Shown here piece by piece: positions 13,695-39,068 of a stretch of 64,000 nt of DNA. Below the pieces are notes generated by a model. The model searched no databases. It was not told the DNA's origin and was given only the letters and a program-made list of their open reading frames with translations. How positions within the stretch are numbered: the first letter of the stretch is position 1; the number at the start of each line of letters is the position of its first letter. Both the position numbers and the translations under genes were made by a program. Origin of the DNA: Bartonella callosciuri (lineage in GTDB: Bacteria > Pseudomonadota > Alphaproteobacteria > Rhizobiales > Rhizobiaceae); NCBI RefSeq assembly GCF_014203215.1, contig NZ_JACHIM010000001.1, forward strand, positions 310,001-374,000. Direction: 5' to 3'.

Positions 13695-14032
13695 ACCTTA
13701 ACTCCACTCGATCACTCCATAGCTTCCACGTGATCAGCTTTTGCGTTCTCACCTAACGTATCAACAATTTATCCTATATATTTCCTCTTAGAAGAGATTG
13801 CTATTAGAAAGAATACATTTTGTAAACGCCTTTCATTCACACAAAAACGCGGGAAAACTTCAGAAGTTTCCCCGACACCTCTCAGCCTTTCTGAGATAAT
13901 CTCTGCACCCTATAGTAAGAACCAATTTCCCGCTTTTTCTAAAATTTATTCGTCATTCCTTATAAAAATGCCGCTCTACATAAATTTTCTCATATTAAGC
14001 TTTAGGTGACTGATTCGCATCAAAAAAGCGAA
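13695..14032. other. dnaG-rpoD intergenic region
   Basis: About 340 bases upstream of rpoD on the minus strand. It contains the hairpins noted at 13843-13873 and 14011-14035 and presumably the main rpoD promoter. No small gene such as rpsU is present. Confidence 0.6.
13843..13873 (-). terminator. Intercistronic terminator-like hairpin between dnaG and rpoD
   Basis: Read on the minus strand, GGGAAACTT and AAGTTTTCCC form a 9-bp stem with one bulge and a 3-base loop, then GCG and five T. It would uncouple dnaG from rpoD transcription, as the known internal terminators of the E. coli rpsU-dnaG-rpoD operon do. A second small stem (CTCAG/CTGAG) is at 13881-13895. Confidence 0.5.
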
Positions 14033-14035
14033 TCA
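14011..14035 (-). repeat. Inverted repeat at the dnaG stop codon
   Basis: TGATTCGC at 14011-14018 and GCGAATCA at 14028-14035 are perfect inverted copies around a nine-base A-rich loop. The repeat includes the dnaG TGA. It could be a weak terminator or a 3'-end stabiliser. Confidence 0.35.
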
Positions 14036-15973
14036 TTTTATCATATCTTGCTTATTCCCCTCTATTTTTTCATCCAACCAACTTCCAAATCCTTCAATTG
14101 ATGCCTCTGTCGCTTGAGTCTGCTCCAACTCATTTTTTATCTCACGAAGCAGATCAAAAACCTCACTCTTAGGATTTTCTACAAGTTGCTCTTCAATATC
14201 TTGTAATCTCTTATGTAGGTGGTATTCTTGAAGATGCAAGTAGAGCGCTTGTTTTAATATAGCACGAGCGTCCTCTATGGGAACTCCGACGACAATAGTC
14301 CCCATACCAACATGTTGCACAAGATCTTTCATACGTTCTAACAACGCTTTTTGTCCTCTTTCTTCTAAAAGTGCAACCATTGTCTCTTTATCATGAAGCT
14401 GCTGTTCTCCAAGAATTTCCAACATGGATTGATGGAAACATACTAATTTTGTATTTTGTAACTCCAACTCAGCAAGAACTTCAAAATTTTCATACCATAA
14501 CTCAGGGTAGTAAGCCAGAATCAATAAAATAACTGCCTCACGCAAAGGGATAGATTGCGAAGAGTTTTGCACTATGTCAGAATTGACTACAGCAGAAAAA
14601 GGTTGATCTTTAAATATGCTATTTTGAGAGGACTTATGATATCGTCCTGCATCTTTTTTTTTCGAAAAAGAAGGATAAAAAAATTCAAAAAGCCGTTTCT
14701 TTATATCCTGTAAATAATAACGCCGTAACTCTTCATCCTTAATCGTAAAAATTTGCTGCTTCAATTGTTTTTCCAGCGTTGCTCGTGCCTCTGGGGTTTC
14801 AAAATTCTTTCCATCTGTAAAACGCCACCACAAAAGCTCAATCAATGGAATTGCTTTTTGCAAAAAAGAAGAAAAAAGTTGTGCACCACCAGCAGCAATA
14901 ATTTCATCTGGATCTTTGCCTTGTGGCAGCAAAACAAAGCGCACAGACACCCCCGCCTTTAAAAGAGGCAACACACGATCAGCAACACGCAAAGCAGCTT
15001 TTAAACCAGCGTCATCTCCATCAAAACACAAAATAGGATCAGTCCTCATCTGCCATAAAAGCCCAATTTGCGCTTCCGTTAATGCTGTTCCCAAAGGCGC
15101 TACCACTCCCTCAAAACCGGATTTAGTTAATGCGATGACATCCATATAACCTTCAACAACAAGGAGTGAACGAAGTCTTTCATTACCCCCAGAGCGGCTA
15201 TTTTTGCGAGCAGCGGCGGCATTGTAAAGGATATTTCCTTTATGAAACAGCACTGTTTCAGGACTATTGAGATATTTTGCCGGCGTATCTTTTTCTAACG
15301 CACGCCCTCCAAAAGCCACCACACGTCCTCGTAAATCTTCAATAGGAAACATAATACGATTTCTAAACCGATCATAGGAAACTGTATTTCCCTCACCCAA
15401 TTTGAGAAGTCCACAATCTTCCATTTGTTTTATTGAAATACCACGTGCACTTAAAGCTTCTTTCAAAGCTGTACGCCTCATTGGGGCAAAACCAATTTGA
15501 AAACGCTCTGCAATTTTTGGCGTTACACCGCGTTCATCAAGATAACGACGCGCCTGCATACCTTCTTCATCGTGTAAGCTACGTTGAAAAAAATCCGTAG
15601 CTATTTTCATAACGTTATAAAGATCAGCTTTTTCCATTTGGCGCTTATGACTTTGCGGATCAAAAAGAGGGAGTTTTATCCCCGCAAAATCGGCTAAACG
15701 CTCTACACTTTCTGAAAAATGCAATCCATCAAGTTCACAAAGGAAAGTAAAAATATCACCGCTCACACCGCAACCAAAACAGTAATAACGACTTTTACGA
15801 TCATCACAGTGAAAACTTGGAGTTTTCTCACCATGAAATGGGCAACAGCACCAAAAATCTCCTCGCGAAGGCTTGCTTTTTTGGGGATCAAAAACCACCC
15901 TTTGTCCAATAACTGTTGAAATTGGCAATCTTATGCGGAGCTCTTCAAGGAAATCAGGAGGAAAGCGCATCAT
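14033..15973 (-). CDS. dnaG: DNA primase DnaG
   Basis: Makes RNA primers at the replication fork with DnaB. At 646 aa it is of normal length. The N-terminal zinc ribbon is CHC2-type with Cys44, His47, Cys65 and Cys68 (CPFHGEKTPSF, YYCFGCG). The catalytic core shows YDRFRNRIMFPIED and GRVVAFGGRAL, then the TOPRIM domain with LLVVEGYMDVIAL and the acidic metal site CFDGDDAGLKAA. The C-terminal helical region (from about residue 480) would be the DnaB-interaction domain and is less conserved. No disruptions are seen. Confidence 0.97.
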   Translation of the reverse strand: MMRFPPDFLEELRIRLPISTVIGQRVVFDPQKSKPSRGDFWCCCPFHGEKTPSFHCDDRKSRYYCFGCGVSGDIFTFLCELDGLHFSESVERLADFAGIKLPLFDPQSHKRQMEKADLYNVMKIATDFFQRSLHDEEGMQARRYLDERGVTPKIAERFQIGFAPMRRTALKEALSARGISIKQMEDCGLLKLGEGNTVSYDRFRNRIMFPIEDLRGRVVAFGGRALEKDTPAKYLNSPETVLFHKGNILYNAAAARKNSRSGGNERLRSLLVVEGYMDVIALTKSGFEGVVAPLGTALTEAQIGLLWQMRTDPILCFDGDDAGLKAALRVADRVLPLLKAGVSVRFVLLPQGKDPDEIIAAGGAQLFSSFLQKAIPLIELLWWRFTDGKNFETPEARATLEKQLKQQIFTIKDEELRRYYLQDIKKRLFEFFYPSFSKKKDAGRYHKSSQNSIFKDQPFSAVVNSDIVQNSSQSIPLREAVILLILAYYPELWYENFEVLAELELQNTKLVCFHQSMLEILGEQQLHDKETMVALLEERGQKALLERMKDLVQHVGMGTIVVGVPIEDARAILKQALYLHLQEYHLHKRLQDIEEQLVENPKSEVFDLLREIKNELEQTQATEASIEGFGSWLDEKIEGNKQDMIK

Positions 15974-22432: not shown

Positions 22433-23832
22433 ATAAAAAACACTATACTTTTTCCATTCTGAAAACTCATTGATTTTATATAATTTTTTCAAGGTAAGGA
22501 ACAAGTTTTCAAACTTATCTGAATAGCATACTATGCATGAAAAACTTTTTTCGCAATACTTTTTAAACCATTCCAACGCGGAAATATCGCCACTTTTACA
22601 AAGAAGCATTTAAAAATCTCTTTTACCTCATCCTAACCATGAAAACATAAAACAAACTTGTCTTTGATAAGCTTTGAATATGTACACCATATTAAAAATT
22701 ATCTGCATTTAAGTTACCTGCAGAAGAATATCCATCCTTTTAAAATATATGGTAGCTCTAAATACCAAGAAACATTTTTGAAGCATCAAAGATGATTGAC
22801 AACATGTTTAAAAAAAACTTTAAATTTTTATCAGACAGTTTTTCTAACCGCCTTATTTTTTCTAAAAGCTTCTTGAGATTGCAGGAATAAATTTTTAGAA
22901 AAGTTAAAACGCTTATAACTCCTTTAATGATGTAATTCTCATAGAGGAAAGCAGAACATAGCACAAAAAGAGGCATCTTGTTTCTCCATCAATAGAAAAA
23001 AACACCAATTTGCTTATTTCAAAGAACTCTTCCCTCATACTAATTTTACAGGATAAATGCTTCTTAACAATGTCTCCATGCTTTCTGTACACTGAATAAG
23101 TTGCCAGTCGTAAAAAACACTTTCAAATGCCCTTTGCAAATTGGTAAGATTCATTCTAATTTTTTACGAAAGTTATTGCAAACCTTAGAAAAACTCATTT
23201 AGCTTGGATAACGTTCCTTGAGCTCTACCATAACCTTACCGATATAATGTAATCTTTCGGCCCTTGTTTGTGCCAAAGCTTCAAAAAGCATTTATTCAAC
23301 TTTTTTCTCATCGAACCGACAAGAACGGAATTCGCAAATAGCTTCTATCTCCTCTTGTTTTTTATACCGATTATAAGAGACAAAACCCTTTATAAATAGG
23401 CGTTAACTCCTCACACTATTGAAACATTTTAGTGAAAACCTACTGTCTCTGATGATCATAGACCTCCGGATTCCCTTTATCACGATCTCTAAGCATCTGT
23501 TAAACGAAGTATAACAAGACAGGCCCATCTTAGACCCTCAAAGCATTTTGAACACAACACCAATCTAGTCTCACGCAACATAAATTTACCCAATTTGTTC
23601 CAACAGAAAAACCATCTTTAACCAATCTTTATCTATCTGCAATGCACGACTAAAAAATAATAAATACTCAGATCTTAGAAAATCCAAAAACAAGACTTTA
23701 CCTCTTCGTGGAATATACCTATACTTTCCATCGTAAGCAAAACAGTGTAAGAACAAGATACATAGCATTGATGGTGCTTTTGTATAACGTTGATCATTAT
23801 GCCTTTCAAAAAGTAAATTGTGGATGCACACT
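22433..23832. other. 1.4-kb region with no intact gene; possible decayed gene on the minus strand
   Basis: No supported gene. On the minus strand around 23400-23050 there are in-register fragments of protein-like composition: RYKKQEEIEAICEFR, LFEALAQTRAERLHYIGKVM and ESVFYDWQLIQCTESMETLL, broken by stops and frame changes. I do not recognise the family. The remainder is AT-rich with random short frames. Confidence 0.35.
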
Positions 23833-25023
23833 ATGACACAAACTATCCCATCTCGCGATCCTTGGAGTGTAAGCAAACCTACAGCCCTCTTAGTATTAGC
23901 TGATGGGACAGTTATTGAGGGTAAAGGAGCAGGTGCTACAGGTATTGCTGAAGCTGAAGTGTGCTTCAACACAGCCATAACAGGTTATGAGGAAATCCTC
24001 ACAGATCCATCATATACACAACAAATTATTAATTTCACTTTTCCTCATATAGGAAATGTAGGCGCAAATAGCGAAGATATTGAAGATCTCACACCCCTCA
24101 ACTGTCGTGGTGCAATAGGTGCTATTTTTAAGGCAGATATTACGCACCCCTCTAATTATCGCGCAAATGAAAACTTTAATAAATGGCTCAAAGCACGTAA
24201 AATTATTGCACTTTGTGGTATTGATACACGCGCACTTACTATTCTTATCCGTGAAAAAGGTACGCAAAATGCCGTCATCGCACATAATCCTCAAGGAGAC
24301 TTCGATATCCTCTCTTTAAAGAAGCGTGCACAAAAATGGTCTGGTCTTATTAATTTCGACCTTACAAAAGAAGTTACCTCTAAATCATTAAGGCAATGGA
24401 ATGAAAAACCATGGGTATGGAATAAAGGATATAGTACAAATAATGTGCATAAGCTTCACATCATTGCAATTGACTATGGCATTAAACGTAATATTCTTCG
24501 CCTTATGGCGATACAAGGTGCACGCATTACTATTGTACCCGCACACACAAATGCAGAAGAAATTCTGGCAATGAACCCCGATGGTATTTTTCTTTCCAAT
24601 GGACCTGGTGATCCGGCTGCTACGGCACAATACGCCATTCCAACTATCAAAACATTGATTGATCGTAATTTACCACTTTTCGGGATATGTCTTGGGCATC
24701 AACTTCTTGCTCTCACGGTTGGCGCAAAAACCATAAAAATGCACCAAGGGCATCATGGCGCCAATCACCCTGTTAAAGATCTTAACACTGGAAAAGTTGA
24801 AATCGTATCAATGAACCATGGTTTTGCCGTAGACACAACATCTTTACCACAATATGTTCAAGAAACACATATTTCCCTTTTTGATGGTTCCAACTGTGGC
24901 CTTCGAATCATTGGAAAACCGGTTTTTTCTGTTCAATATCACCCCGAGGCTTCCCCCGGTCCACAAGACAGTCACTACCTCTTTCAACATTTCTGCGATC
25001 TTATTATGGACTATAAAAAATAG
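23833..25023 (+). CDS. carA: Carbamoyl-phosphate synthase small subunit CarA
   Basis: Glutaminase subunit that delivers ammonia to CarB for carbamoyl phosphate, feeding arginine and pyrimidine synthesis. The N-terminal domain carries FNTAITGYEEILTDPSYTQQ and FTFPHIGNVGANSEDIE. The C-terminal class I amidotransferase domain carries NGPGDP, the nucleophile motif GICLGHQLLA (Cys at about 280), HHGANHPV, and the His/Glu of VQYHPEASPGPQDS. I use the ATG at 23833 (MTQTIPSRDPW), the usual rhizobial start, rather than upstream TTG/ATG codons. About 396 aa. carB lies 3.5 kb downstream on the same strand, not adjacent. Confidence 0.97.
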   Translation: MTQTIPSRDPWSVSKPTALLVLADGTVIEGKGAGATGIAEAEVCFNTAITGYEEILTDPSYTQQIINFTFPHIGNVGANSEDIEDLTPLNCRGAIGAIFKADITHPSNYRANENFNKWLKARKIIALCGIDTRALTILIREKGTQNAVIAHNPQGDFDILSLKKRAQKWSGLINFDLTKEVTSKSLRQWNEKPWVWNKGYSTNNVHKLHIIAIDYGIKRNILRLMAIQGARITIVPAHTNAEEILAMNPDGIFLSNGPGDPAATAQYAIPTIKTLIDRNLPLFGICLGHQLLALTVGAKTIKMHQGHHGANHPVKDLNTGKVEIVSMNHGFAVDTTSLPQYVQETHISLFDGSNCGLRIIGKPVFSVQYHPEASPGPQDSHYLFQHFCDLIMDYKK

Positions 25024-32504: not shown

Positions 32505-34630
<2,126 letters not shown>

Positions 34631-35256: not shown

Positions 35257-35282
35257 AAAAAAAAGCCGGACAAATGCCCGGC
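35257..35282 (-). terminator. Intrinsic terminator of the candidate sRNA
   Basis: On the minus strand GCCGGG-CATTTG-TCCGGC (one G-U pair) is followed by eight T. It may also end readthrough from lsrB. Confidence 0.85.
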
Positions 35283-35374
35283 AAATCTGGTAAATCTCCA
35301 GAGATAAAATCAATCTGACAGATTTCCGTAAGGGAACCCTCAAGAAAATGCAATGGGAGGCAACATAATCAAGA
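35257..35374 (-). ncRNA. Candidate AbcR-like (alpha-r15) trans-acting sRNA
   Basis: On the minus strand just downstream of lsrB lies a possible promoter (TTGCAC at 35411-35406, TACTAT at 35386-35381, spacing 19). A transcript starting near 35374 would contain an unpaired-looking GCCTCCCATTGC (35361-35350), then AGGGTTCCCT, and end at a strong intrinsic terminator, giving about 118 nt. AbcR/alpha-r15 sRNAs of Rhizobiales are about this long, sit next to the lsrB/vtlR gene, and use CUCCCA-type anti-Shine-Dalgarno loops to repress ABC-transporter mRNAs with Hfq. The identification rests on place, size, motif and terminator, not on a search. Confidence 0.6.
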
Positions 35375-35467
35375 GGTAGCATAGTATGTCATTTTATCAG
35401 AAAAAGTGCAATAAAGACTTAAGCGTATCAGCTATGCAATAAACACATAGCTTTAAATACCACATCG

Positions 35468-36373
35468 TTAAAAGGACCACTGACGGGCTTTTAAAAAAAT
35501 ATAATCTCGAAAAGCTCTCAGCTTTGCTAAGTTCTTTAAAGCGTAAGGATAACAAAAAAAAGTATCAAAGGAAGGAATATCGACCATATCAGGAAAGAGA
35601 CGCACGAGTTTCTGATCATTATTCACGATATAATCAGGAAGAACAGCGATACCAAGATCACGCATAATTGCATTCTTGATTGAAATAATATTATTGATTC
35701 GTAAAACTGAAAGACGCAAAGATCCATCACTTCTGCCAGCCTTTTCCAACCAATTTAAACTAGACAAATAAGGCGGAACAGGTTCACCGAACGAAATAAT
35801 ACGGTGTGACTCTAACTCAGATAATGTTTCTGGTTTTCCATACTTTGCAACATAGTTTTCTGAAGCATAAACATGCATATGAATTGTAAAGAGTTTTCTT
35901 TGTATAAGGTCAGGCTGTTGGGGCTGCTGCAAACGAACAGCACAATCTGCTTGGCGCATTGTTAAATCAAGTTCTTTATCATCAAACAAGAGCTGGATAC
36001 ATATATCCGGATAAAGACTAAGAAATTCGGGCATACGCTCCACAAGCCATCCTGCTCCTACTCCAAAAGTCGATGTAACCCGCAAATTTCCTGTTGGCTT
36101 TTCACAGCTTTCACTTAATTGCGAACGTGCACTCTCAAGTTTCATCAAAACATCATGGGTTGTACGATAAAGAATTTCACCCTGCTCCGTTAAAATTAAT
36201 CCACGAGCATGACGCTGAAACAAGGACACACCAACATCCTGCTCTAAAACTGAAACCTGTCGTGAAACAGCTGACTGAGATAAATGAAGCTTTTGAGCTG
36301 CATGTGTAAAAGAACCTGCTTCTGCCACAGCATGAAAAACCCTTAACTTATCCCAATCTAACGGTGACGTCAC
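35468..36373 (-). CDS. lsrB: LysR-type regulator LsrB/VtlR
   Basis: A 301-aa LysR-family activator. The N-terminal winged HTH reads DWDKLRVFHAVAEAGSFTHA, then LSQSAVSRQVSVLEQDVG and LFQRHARGLILTEQGE; the C-terminal co-inducer domain starts near GNLRVTSTFGVGAGWL. Its position directly downstream of trxB, 27 bases away on the same strand, is that of Sinorhizobium lsrB and Brucella vtlR. In those species the protein supports oxidative-stress response or host infection, and VtlR activates the sRNA abcR2. A candidate AbcR-like sRNA lies immediately downstream here. Intact. Confidence 0.85.
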   Translation of the reverse strand: MTSPLDWDKLRVFHAVAEAGSFTHAAQKLHLSQSAVSRQVSVLEQDVGVSLFQRHARGLILTEQGEILYRTTHDVLMKLESARSQLSESCEKPTGNLRVTSTFGVGAGWLVERMPEFLSLYPDICIQLLFDDKELDLTMRQADCAVRLQQPQQPDLIQRKLFTIHMHVYASENYVAKYGKPETLSELESHRIISFGEPVPPYLSSLNWLEKAGRSDGSLRLSVLRINNIISIKNAIMRDLGIAVLPDYIVNNDQKLVRLFPDMVDIPSFDTFFCYPYALKNLAKLRAFRDYIFLKARQWSF

Positions 36374-36400: not shown

Positions 36401-37363
36401 TCAATAAATTTTTGCTTGTAGAGCTAAAAAACGTTCTGCTTCTAAGGCCGCCATACATCCATTTCCTGCTGCTGTTATAGCTTGGCGGAATTTTTCATCT
36501 GTTACATCGCCTGCAGCAAAAACACCAGCAATGCTTGTTGCCGTTGAATCTGGCACTGTCCATAAATAACCACCTTGTTTTTGTTTTAATTGTCCTTCAA
36601 ACAAAGAAACAGCGGGGTCGTGCCCAATGGCAATAAATATTCCCTCCGCATTCACCTTAACTGCTTGGCCGGTTTTAACATTTTTAAGACATGCACCTGT
36701 TACCACAGCTCCCCTAGAATCCTGCGCTGGCAAACCAACAATTTCTTCTACCACATGATCCCAAAGAACCCGTACATTATCGCAAGCAAGTAACCTATCT
36801 TGCAAAATTTTCTCCGCCCGAAAATAATCGCGTCGATGAACCACGTTTACACTCTTAGCCAAATGCGATAAATAAAGCGCTTCTTCAACAGCTGTATTTC
36901 CACCTCCCACAACAATGACATCCTTATCACGATAAAAAAAGCCATCGCATGTAGCGCAAGCAGAAACCCCCCCTCCCATAAAAGTCTTTTCACTTTCCAA
37001 ACCAAGCCAGCGCGCCTGCGCTCCCGTTGCAATAATCAGAGCATCACAACAATATTGCGCTCCAGAATCTCCATATAAGACAAAAGGATACTTCAATAAA
37101 TCAGCCTTTGTAATATTATCATAGACAATTTTTGTACCCATATTTTCGGCTTGTTTCGCCATTTGTTGCATCAACCATGGCCCTTGAATTGGATCCGCAA
37201 AACCTGGATAATTTTCAACATCAGTTGTAATCATCAATTGCCCGCCCTGCTGCACACCAGTAACCAAAACCGGCTTAAGCATTGCTCTTGCCGCATAAAT
37301 CGCTGCTGTATAACCAGCTGGGCCCGAGCCAATAATAAGCAAGCGAATATGCGATTGCACCAT
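36401..37363 (-). CDS. trxB: Thioredoxin reductase TrxB
   Basis: FAD/NADPH enzyme of 320 aa that reduces thioredoxin in the cytoplasm. The FAD-binding motif is IGSGPAGYTAAIYAARA (residues about 11-27). The redox-active disulfide is CATC (Cys136 and Cys139), followed by the NADPH motif VVGGGNTAVEEALYL and the second FAD segment GVFAAGDVTDEKFRQAITAA. It forms a probable operator with lsrB downstream on the same strand, linking redox enzyme and redox-type regulator. Intact; divergent from trkH. Confidence 0.96.
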   Translation of the reverse strand: MVQSHIRLLIIGSGPAGYTAAIYAARAMLKPVLVTGVQQGGQLMITTDVENYPGFADPIQGPWLMQQMAKQAENMGTKIVYDNITKADLLKYPFVLYGDSGAQYCCDALIIATGAQARWLGLESEKTFMGGGVSACATCDGFFYRDKDVIVVGGGNTAVEEALYLSHLAKSVNVVHRRDYFRAEKILQDRLLACDNVRVLWDHVVEEIVGLPAQDSRGAVVTGACLKNVKTGQAVKVNAEGIFIAIGHDPAVSLFEGQLKQKQGGYLWTVPDSTATSIAGVFAAGDVTDEKFRQAITAAGNGCMAALEAERFLALQAKIY

Positions 37364-37616: not shown

Positions 37617-39068
37617 ATTTTTCAGTTTATTATCAATGTTTGTGCGCGTTTCACGTTAATTATGGGAGGAGCAATGCTTCTACCGATTTTTGTTGATTTG
37701 CACGACAGCAACCATAATTGGATAAGCTTTCTCTACTCTTATGTCATCACCACCATGTTAGCAACGCTGCTTCTTTTAGCTACCAAGGGTGCTAGCTGTC
37801 GTTTTTCAGCACGGCTTGGCTTTATGCTCACTGTCTGTCTTTGGCTAACAGGAAGCATAGTAGGTGCCTTACCTCTTTATCTTTCCCCTCTTCCAATTTC
37901 TCTAGCAGGAGCAATCTTCGAATCCGTCTCAGGTATTACAACGACAGGCTCTACAGTACTTACTGGTCTTGATAACTTATCACGCAGCATTTTGTTATGG
38001 CGTTCCATCATATGCTGGATTGGAGGGATTGGTTTTATTGGTTTAGCCCTTTTGCTTTTACCTTCACTACGTGTTGGTGGAGTGCAACTTTTTCATATGG
38101 AATCATCAGATAAATCTGAAAAAGTATTACCCCGTATCAACCAAATTGCCAACGGAATTATCATAGCGTATGTTGGACTAACACTGGCTTGTATGCTTTC
38201 CTATTTTGCTTCAGGGATGAACTTATTTGATGCCATCAACCACGCAATGAGTACGGTAGCAACAGCTGGTTTCTCAACGCATGACTCCTCTTTTGGCTAT
38301 TTTTCTGATAAACCAGCCGTCTTAATCATTTCAACAATCTTTATGTTACTCTCGGCACTCCCCTTCGTACTTTATGTTAAATTAGTGCTTCCTGGTCGCT
38401 CCAAACGCTTCATTGACCCACAAGTAATTGTTTTTTTCTATATTGTGTTCCTTTTGAGCTTTGCTTTAGCAACGTGGCTAAGATTTCATGATCATCGTGC
38501 TTTTCACTTGATTTTTCTTGATGCTATTTTTCACCTTACTTCTATCATCAGTACAACTGGTTATAGTGCAGAAGATTATCAATTGTGGGGACCTTTTGCA
38601 CTTGGCATTTTTTTCATTATTTCTTTTACAGGCGGATGTGCTGGTTCTACCTCTGGTGGAATGAAAATCAATCGCTTAATTATCCTTTGGCGTATTACAC
38701 AAACAAATATAGAAAAACTTCTTTTCCCTAATGTCGTTGTAAAAGCACGCTACGACCATTTGAACATCTCGAGCGATACTGCTAAAGCAGTTTTATTTTT
38801 TGTCTGTCTTTATATGTTCTGTCTTCTCATTGGCACTGCGTTTTTGCTAACAACCGGTCTTGACTTCACTTCTGCCTTCACCGGCGTCTTAACCGCTCTT
38901 TCCAATATTGGTCCAGGTTTTGGAAATATTATTGGTCCCGCTGGAAATTTCTCTACAATTAATGATAATGCTTTATGGATTTTGAGTTTTCTTATGCTGG
39001 CTGGGCGTCTTGAAATTATAACCATATTCGTACTTTTTATCCCCGCTTTTTGGCGTGAAAAGTTTTAA
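37617..39068 (+). CDS. trkH: TrkH-family potassium uptake protein, probable ATT start
   Basis: Polytopic K+ channel subunit of the Trk system, working with the NAD-binding TrkA. Selectivity-filter-like loops are seen: VSGITTTGSTVLTGLD, STVATAGFSTHDSSF, IISTTGYSAEDY and LSNIGPGFGN. The first ATG (37662) would cut into the first membrane helix. The frame extends 15 codons upstream to ATT at 37617, six bases after AGGGA, and gives 483 aa with a complete first helix (FIINVCARFTLIMGGAMLL); no ATG, GTG or TTG occurs in that stretch. I therefore propose a non-canonical ATT start, otherwise an N-terminally damaged gene. Confidence 0.88.
   Translation: MFQFIINVCARFTLIMGGAMLLPIFVDLHDSNHNWISFLYSYVITTMLATLLLLATKGASCRFSARLGFMLTVCLWLTGSIVGALPLYLSPLPISLAGAIFESVSGITTTGSTVLTGLDNLSRSILLWRSIICWIGGIGFIGLALLLLPSLRVGGVQLFHMESSDKSEKVLPRINQIANGIIIAYVGLTLACMLSYFASGMNLFDAINHAMSTVATAGFSTHDSSFGYFSDKPAVLIISTIFMLLSALPFVLYVKLVLPGRSKRFIDPQVIVFFYIVFLLSFALATWLRFHDHRAFHLIFLDAIFHLTSIISTTGYSAEDYQLWGPFALGIFFIISFTGGCAGSTSGGMKINRLIILWRITQTNIEKLLFPNVVVKARYDHLNISSDTAKAVLFFVCLYMFCLLIGTAFLLTTGLDFTSAFTGVLTALSNIGPGFGNIIGPAGNFSTINDNALWILSFLMLAGRLEIITIFVLFIPAFWREKF

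Follow-up and report, generated by a model that had tools for sequence, protein, structure and literature searches.

The window analysed here is a stretch of 64,000 nucleotides of Bartonella callosciuri (contig NZ_JACHIM010000001.1, positions 310,001 to 374,000), and the locus studied lies on its minus strand. A thioredoxin reductase-like gene (36401..37363, Pfam Pyr_redox_2), which we take to be trxB from its position, is located 27 nt upstream of an lsrB/vtlR orthologue (35468..36373) encoding a LysR-type regulator of 301 aa (Pfam HTH_1 and LysR_substrate). These two genes are the usual lsrB-trxB pair of Rhizobiales, whose co-localization has been described (PMC11975290). Downstream of lsrB and on the same strand lies a small RNA gene that we assign to AbcR1 as an orthologue (35257..35376), with 91 nt between the lsrB stop and the predicted sRNA start. 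Past the sRNA terminator, an aminotransferase gene is found in convergent orientation (33428..34630, plus strand, Pfam Aminotran_1_2). The lsrB gene is present without internal stops in all 71 Bartonella genomes. Cys144 and Cys274 of LsrB are found in all 77 aligned sequences, including that of the window, and are likely the counterparts of C144/C273, the conserved cysteine pair of A. tumefaciens (PMC11975290). The genome also harbors an hfq gene (profile match of 110.8 bits). A preliminary description of this DNA had linked the sRNA to lsrB, and the synteny bears this out, the gene order and strand being the same at all of the 20 further rhizobial ar15 loci that also hold lsrB (30 were fetched). 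Such linkage is common but not universal, since 15 of 35 non-Bartonella lsrB loci, many of them from Brucella/Ochrobactrum, had no AbcR1 within the stretch scanned behind lsrB. At two non-Bartonella loci, AbcR1 lies about 1.2 kb away from lsrB.

The promoter-like pair, the pairing segment and the terminator with eight T described beforehand are all present on the minus strand. The -35-like hexamer TTGCAC (35406..35411) and the -10-like hexamer CATACT (35383..35388) are separated by 17 nt, and the TTG of the former and the ATA of the latter are common to 29 of 29 alignment rows. Upstream of them, an LsrB-type dyad, GCTATG-N9-CATAGC, which includes T-N11-A, was recognized by its pattern and conservation. 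The elements do lie within 35257-35411, as first proposed, but the locus has to be extended because this regulatory dyad sits at 35431..35451. The transcript, put initially at about 118 nt, is predicted here to span about 120 nt, from a start at 35376 to the end of the T run at 35257. Folding of the RNA from 35375 predicted three stem-loops (-32 kcal/mol, z -2.56), which agree with the five helices of our structure alignment. Stem-loop 1 (35339..35375, minus strand, helices 1 and 2) carries in its loop the anti-Shine-Dalgarno motif 1, or aSD1, CCTCCCATTGC (35350..35360, minus strand). It is followed on the same strand by a shortened aSD2, GTTCCCTT (35330..35337), recognized by its sequence and by alignment with relatives, and by stem-loop 2 (35289..35327, helices 3 and 4). 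The intrinsic terminator (35257..35282, minus strand, helix 5) consists of stem-loop 3, GCCGGGC-ATTT-GTCCGGC at 35282-35265, and of eight T at 35264-35257; the terminator scan of the sRNA stretch found this one against 0.4 expected. The promoter scanner gave 7 promoter-like sites against 3.9 +/- 2.0 expected, and the exact TTGCAC/CATACT pair was absent from its site list. Taken alone, the promoter match is not above chance and is worth little; it is the conservation described below that makes the sRNA gene more than a chance arrangement. A short reading frame, 8 codons long (ATGTTGCCTCCCATTGCATTTTCTTGA, 35340-35366, minus strand), also lies within stem-loop 1. Its ATG is missing in B. tamiae and in the bee Bartonella of the alignment, and this frame is probably due to chance.

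In S. meliloti, abcR1 has an LsrB box, GCAT-N3-TG-N3-T, at -61 to -49 and its expression needs LsrB, while abcR2 has no LsrB box and is read from an RpoH1 promoter (PMC8844928). An A. tumefaciens study reported the S. meliloti abcR RNAs to be without LsrB effect in its conditions (PMC7486931), and the literature on this control is not unanimous. At the window locus, the box GCATAGCTGATAC (35437-35425, minus strand) retains GCAT-N3-TG and has C in place of the last T, so that it departs from the published box at that base. When its start at 35437 is taken as -61, the sRNA start falls at 35376, and the same start is obtained from the -10 hexamer. Among 68 aligned Bartonella loci, the strict box occurs in 14 and GCAT-N3-TG in 17. 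GCATAGCAG occurs in 38 of the 55 intact copies, and the palindrome is largely kept. The LsrB-type dyad points to a gene of the AbcR1 rather than the AbcR2 type. Elsewhere in the genome, a second perfect dyad of the form GCYATG-N9-CATRGC is found on contig C5 (34695-34715) inside a coding sequence, presumably lpxA, and given this position we do not claim it as an LsrB site; six further dyads have one mismatch. A contig titled Bacillus subtilis SK6B4 harbors an lsrB locus whose LsrB box and CTCCCATTGC resemble the Pseudochrobactrum ones, and this record looks mislabelled or contaminated.

The RNA lies on the same strand as lsrB, about 90 nt behind its stop, and a search between the two revealed no terminator-like site. 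It could thus be the processed 3' end of the lsrB (trxB-lsrB) mRNA, with no promoter of its own, but we consider this very unlikely. The dyad and the -35 and -10 hexamers are conserved together with the RNA. Moreover, in many genomes the RNA is 0.3-2 kb away from lsrB, with promoter and RNA retained; extra DNA is found at this place in genomes of the B. tribocorum/B. grahamii/B. elizabethae group. Where its content was examined, in four genomes, the inserts hold solely ORFs of 40-138 aa, none of them identified. The S. meliloti homologues, too, have mapped starts of their own (PMC7143759). That dyad, promoter and RNA stay together up to about 2 kb away from lsrB favors an independent gene.

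We then considered the conservation of this sRNA gene within the genus. BLAST with a 201-nt query gave matches in 63 of 71 Bartonella genomes. Of the 62 matches in genomes other than that of the window, 60 end at most 3 bases from the terminator end and two stop earlier. A profile including Bartonella rows located the homologous place behind lsrB in 68 of the 71 genomes, with several weak matches; at these 68 aligned loci, CCTCCCATTGC is identical in 50 and CTCCCA is found in 55. Mean pairwise identity was determined for 41 related genomes, those with intact copies out of the 42 genomes of the window's clade, so that selection bias is small. It reached 0.917 for the RNA, 0.987 for stem-loop 1, 0.959 for the dyad and 0.873 for the promoter, against 0.534 over the first 60 nt past the terminator and 0.481 over the next 100 nt. 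The RNA is therefore under constraint relative to the diverged DNA downstream.

The genus was sorted into classes of our own, in which an intact copy has CTCCCA and a terminator below -6 kcal/mol with at least five T. By these thresholds, 55 of the 71 genomes have an intact copy, 6 have kept the terminator with CTCCCA changed (copies with CTCCTA are counted here, and these might still pair with ribosome-binding sites), 7 have a decayed copy and 3 have none. Strain DB5-6 belongs to the CTCCCA-changed group; B. melophagi and strains WD12.1, AR 15-3 and G70 are among the decayed group; and B. bacilliformis Ver097 and two related genomes are those without a recognizable copy. A term search of a published B. 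bacilliformis sRNA study gave no ar15 (PMC7717549), which is consistent with its absence there. On a tree built only from lsrB, in which some nodes are weakly supported (0.23-0.8), the non-intact states require 3 changes by Fitch parsimony, against a mean of 14.7 when shuffled, or 5 losses if these are irreversible. The window's genome itself has one recognizable copy, as the model search gave a single match at E <= 1. The idea that one copy is kept in a reduced genome thus holds for this genome but not as a rule for the genus, with 16 of 71 genomes changed, decayed or missing the RNA.

The decay in these related lineages, together with the shortened aSD2 and the internal mismatches of stem-loop 1 in the clade, would also fit a former AbcR1 that has become a functionless relic in the window's genome. 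We regard this as very unlikely, since the window copy has all its elements and the RNA and stem-loop 1 are far better preserved than the flanking DNA (0.917 and 0.987 versus 0.48-0.53 in the 41 genomes). A conserved sRNA gene with its own promoter remains our reading of the locus.

As to its family, the Rfam ar15 model (RF02345) aligned at full length with 35376-35261 at 17.6 bits (E 0.24). The covariance search with the alpha-r15/AbcR model that had been suggested as a check therefore ends below the gathering score of 40 bits, an outcome that, by the condition set beforehand, would have spoken against the AbcR reading, and the Rfam scan of the window gave no model above cut-off apart from a tRNA. 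At the sRNA, two unrelated families score higher than ar15 (rpsL_pseudo, 20.9; rseX, 18.7); these, PrrF (15.8) and others were rejected, all being far below their cut-offs. Among 247 genomes of the GTDB family, 186 have an ar15 match at E <= 0.001, and no match at this threshold was obtained in the window's genome or in three other listed Bartonella genomes, which hold altered or decayed copies. Congeners at the same locus do pass. Out of 16 loci behind lsrB, 15 exceed the ar15 cut-off, namely B. tamiae (50.9), B. apis (59.5), two Bartonella MAGs (58), which we infer to be bee-associated from their closeness to B. apis, and 11 non-Bartonella relatives; the sole miss is a Candidatus Tokpelaia genome. 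Out of 12 further Bartonella loci, 2 pass (a Bartonella MAG and B. apihabitans), and the 10 that fail comprise 4 intact copies (those of the window, B. phoceensis, B. koehlerae and B. grahamii) and 6 altered ones.

Models built without any Bartonella sequence recover the window locus. A profile HMM of 12 non-Bartonella loci matched 35448-35247 with E 7.8e-9, the next best place having 0.14. Its RNA part alone gave E 3.9e-7, and its dyad and promoter part by itself did not reach significance (E 0.24, ranking second among the places in the window). A covariance model of 18 non-Bartonella RNAs matched 35380-35257 at full length with 38.9 bits (E 3.5e-7), and the next place reached 11 bits. In a 29-locus alignment running from Brucella relatives to the window, the dyad, the -35 and -10 hexamers, the CTCCCA core, GTTCCC and the terminator are common to the loci. 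The structure alignment used 50 of the 61 distinct RNAs that had been located (33 of 44 from Bartonella and all 17 from elsewhere). The pattern that served to locate them gave no match in 25 of the 71 Bartonella genomes (9 intact, 6 CTCCCA-changed, 7 decayed and 3 absent), so that decayed copies are not part of the alignment and its pair counts lean to intact RNAs. Across the 50 RNAs, 97.6% of cells are paired in the three-stem structure, compared with 38.6-45.4% when it is slid, and covariation is seen in 97 cells in which both sides have changed, compared with 35 after shuffling. Such changes concern 10 pairs, a number that 44 of 500 shuffles also attained and that is not unusual. A possible second AbcR copy in B. 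tamiae (a weak model match of 37.7 bits) was also looked at and discarded: there is no Rfam ar15 there, and the place has a sub-threshold match to another Rfam family with a terminator inside.

The low ar15 scores (17.6 bits at the window copy, 10 of 12 Bartonella loci under the cut-off, no match in the four listed genomes) might speak for an sRNA specific to Bartonella and unrelated to AbcR1, which took the place of the latter at this site and converged on an anti-SD motif and a terminator, but this is hardly credible, being already contradicted by the intermediate sequences, through which promoter and RNA can be aligned from Brucella relatives via the bee Bartonella and B. tamiae to the window, and by the end-to-end match of the outgroup-only covariance model. 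These intermediates settle the AbcR identity, and the AbcR-like reading of the preliminary description is supported by them. Since congeners at the same locus pass Rfam, our claim is one of orthology by descent and not an Rfam call. The Rfam score is a threshold rather than a biological trait, and the model is too narrow for this branch. Judged from its sequence, the window sRNA is a diverged AbcR1 orthologue.

In S. meliloti AbcR1 and AbcR2, aSD1 (CUCCUCCC) and aSD2 (UUCCCCUC) pair with ribosome-binding sites and block translation (PMC8844928). The aSD1 of the window, UUGCCUCCC, has kept CCUCCCA in the loop, with its first part changed to UUG. Its aSD2, UUCCCUUA, located between stem-loops 1 and 2, has kept UUCCCU, and the rest is changed to UA. 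In the alignment, B. tamiae and the bee Bartonella have the full aSD1 and aSD2 motifs. As both motifs differ in the window, part of the pairing repertoire must differ as well. In the Bartonella rows, an insert of up to about 14 nt extends stem-loop 2 beyond its length in non-Bartonella relatives, and stem-loop 1 has internal mismatches in the window's clade.

In simple and partial searches of the genome for complements of aSD1, none of the matches was convincing as a target at a start site. The anti-SD has one other perfect complement of 10 nt in the genome (CAATGGGAGG), which was set aside, as no ORF of at least 60 aa starts behind it. The pattern TGGGAG-N3-9-ATG occurs at 81 places, many of which belong to tandem repeats, against 32 in the reversed control. 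Of these 81, 30 were retrieved as loci and 16 of the 30, on one strand, were evaluated; a frame of more than 80 aa is present at 4 of the 16. An 8-nt match in trkH (37662-37669) was rejected as a target because in the relatives examined the reading frame extends further upstream; the match corresponds to the codon sequence Met-Gly-Gly-Ala-Met. Two tandem arrays were noticed outside the window on contig C6 of the same genome, one with a 13-bp spacing (TGGGAGGCTTTAATG, 23791-24078) and the other with a 206-bp spacing (13977-15022).

Altogether, the locus very probably harbors a single-copy, vertically inherited AbcR1 sRNA gene that is activated by LsrB and yields an RNA of about 120 nt, which blocks translation by Hfq-aided pairing. 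By analogy with its relatives, the following sequence of events may be proposed. LsrB, as a product of the adjacent upstream trxB-lsrB unit, would bind the dyad at 35431-35451 and activate the sigma-70 promoter of the sRNA. The resulting RNA, with its three stem-loops, would end at the T8 terminator. Together with Hfq, it would pair through the CCUCCCAUUGC loop of stem-loop 1 with the ribosome-binding sites of mRNAs, and the shortened UUCCCU segment perhaps pairs too. The targets would probably be mRNAs of transport and metabolic genes, whose translation would be blocked.

The window's clade holds mostly rodent- and cat-associated species. We tentatively propose, at somewhat less than an even chance, that AbcR1 was rewired in this clade and not simply retained: it would have given up aSD2 and part of aSD1, enlarged stem-loop 2 and come to serve a small, Bartonella-specific target set. 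Among the sister lineages, such as B. bacilliformis and the B. melophagi group, up to five separate events would have altered or removed the RNA and left LsrB in place. On this view, the regulator would have outlived its signature sRNA in those lineages.

In Brucella, Agrobacterium and Sinorhizobium, VtlR/LsrB is important for virulence or symbiosis. B. abortus is weakened by the loss of both AbcR RNAs, and an A. tumefaciens abcR1 mutant is reported to be without the vtlR phenotypes. We found no description of AbcR in Bartonella in the literature searched, a body of work that most subscription papers lay outside. According to a 2011 survey, some sRNA families reach Bartonellaceae, and AbcR is not among them in the portion of its text examined (PMC3927594). 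Bartonella thus gains a candidate redox-linked LsrB-sRNA circuit to test, in a clade that the Rfam ar15 model misses. The genus also offers a natural experiment, with lsrB and an intact RNA in 55 genomes to be compared with a changed, decayed or missing RNA in 16.

Finally, we compared the locus with known systems. The Brt1-9 RNAs of B. henselae are genus-specific RNAs of 194-203 nt located upstream of XRE-type trp genes (PMC5387305). Compared by description only, they resemble the window sRNA in being an sRNA family of the genus Bartonella, but the latter is about 120 nt long, lies behind lsrB and is convergent with an aminotransferase gene. AbcR1 of A. tumefaciens and B. abortus is activated by the neighboring VtlR (PMC7486931, PMC8844928); the window gene has a neighbor of the same gene family and the same type of box, but its strict box is broken at the last base and its activation is predicted. 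The RpoH1-dependent AbcR2 of S. meliloti is a homologous RNA of similar length, but the window gene has an LsrB-type dyad where AbcR2 has an RpoH1 promoter (PMC8844928). The closest likeness is to AbcR1 of S. meliloti (SmelC412/smrC16, alpha-r15, RF02345), which also adjoins lsrB, has a sigma-70 promoter with an LsrB-type box about 61 nt before the start, and gives an RNA of about 120 nt with three stem-loops, aSD1 in the loop of stem-loop 1 and an L-shaped terminator (PMC8844928, PMC2245857, PMC7143759). The strand relative to lsrB may differ, since the printed arrangement of SMc01226-sra41-SMc01225, '< < >' (PMC2245857), would as printed mean that the S. meliloti sRNA is on the strand opposite to its lsrB. 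Contrary to the tandem AbcR1/AbcR2 of S. meliloti, the window gene is single-copy. It also differs from S. meliloti AbcR1 in aSD1 (UUGCCUCCC versus CUCCUCCC), in aSD2 (UUCCCUUA versus UUCCCCUC), in its longer stem-loop 2 and in an Rfam score under the cut-off. The aSD2, which belongs to a stretch described as ultraconserved in work on S. meliloti, is truncated in the window. The AbcR1 of the window is thus a member of a known rhizobial/Brucella family, with notable changes.
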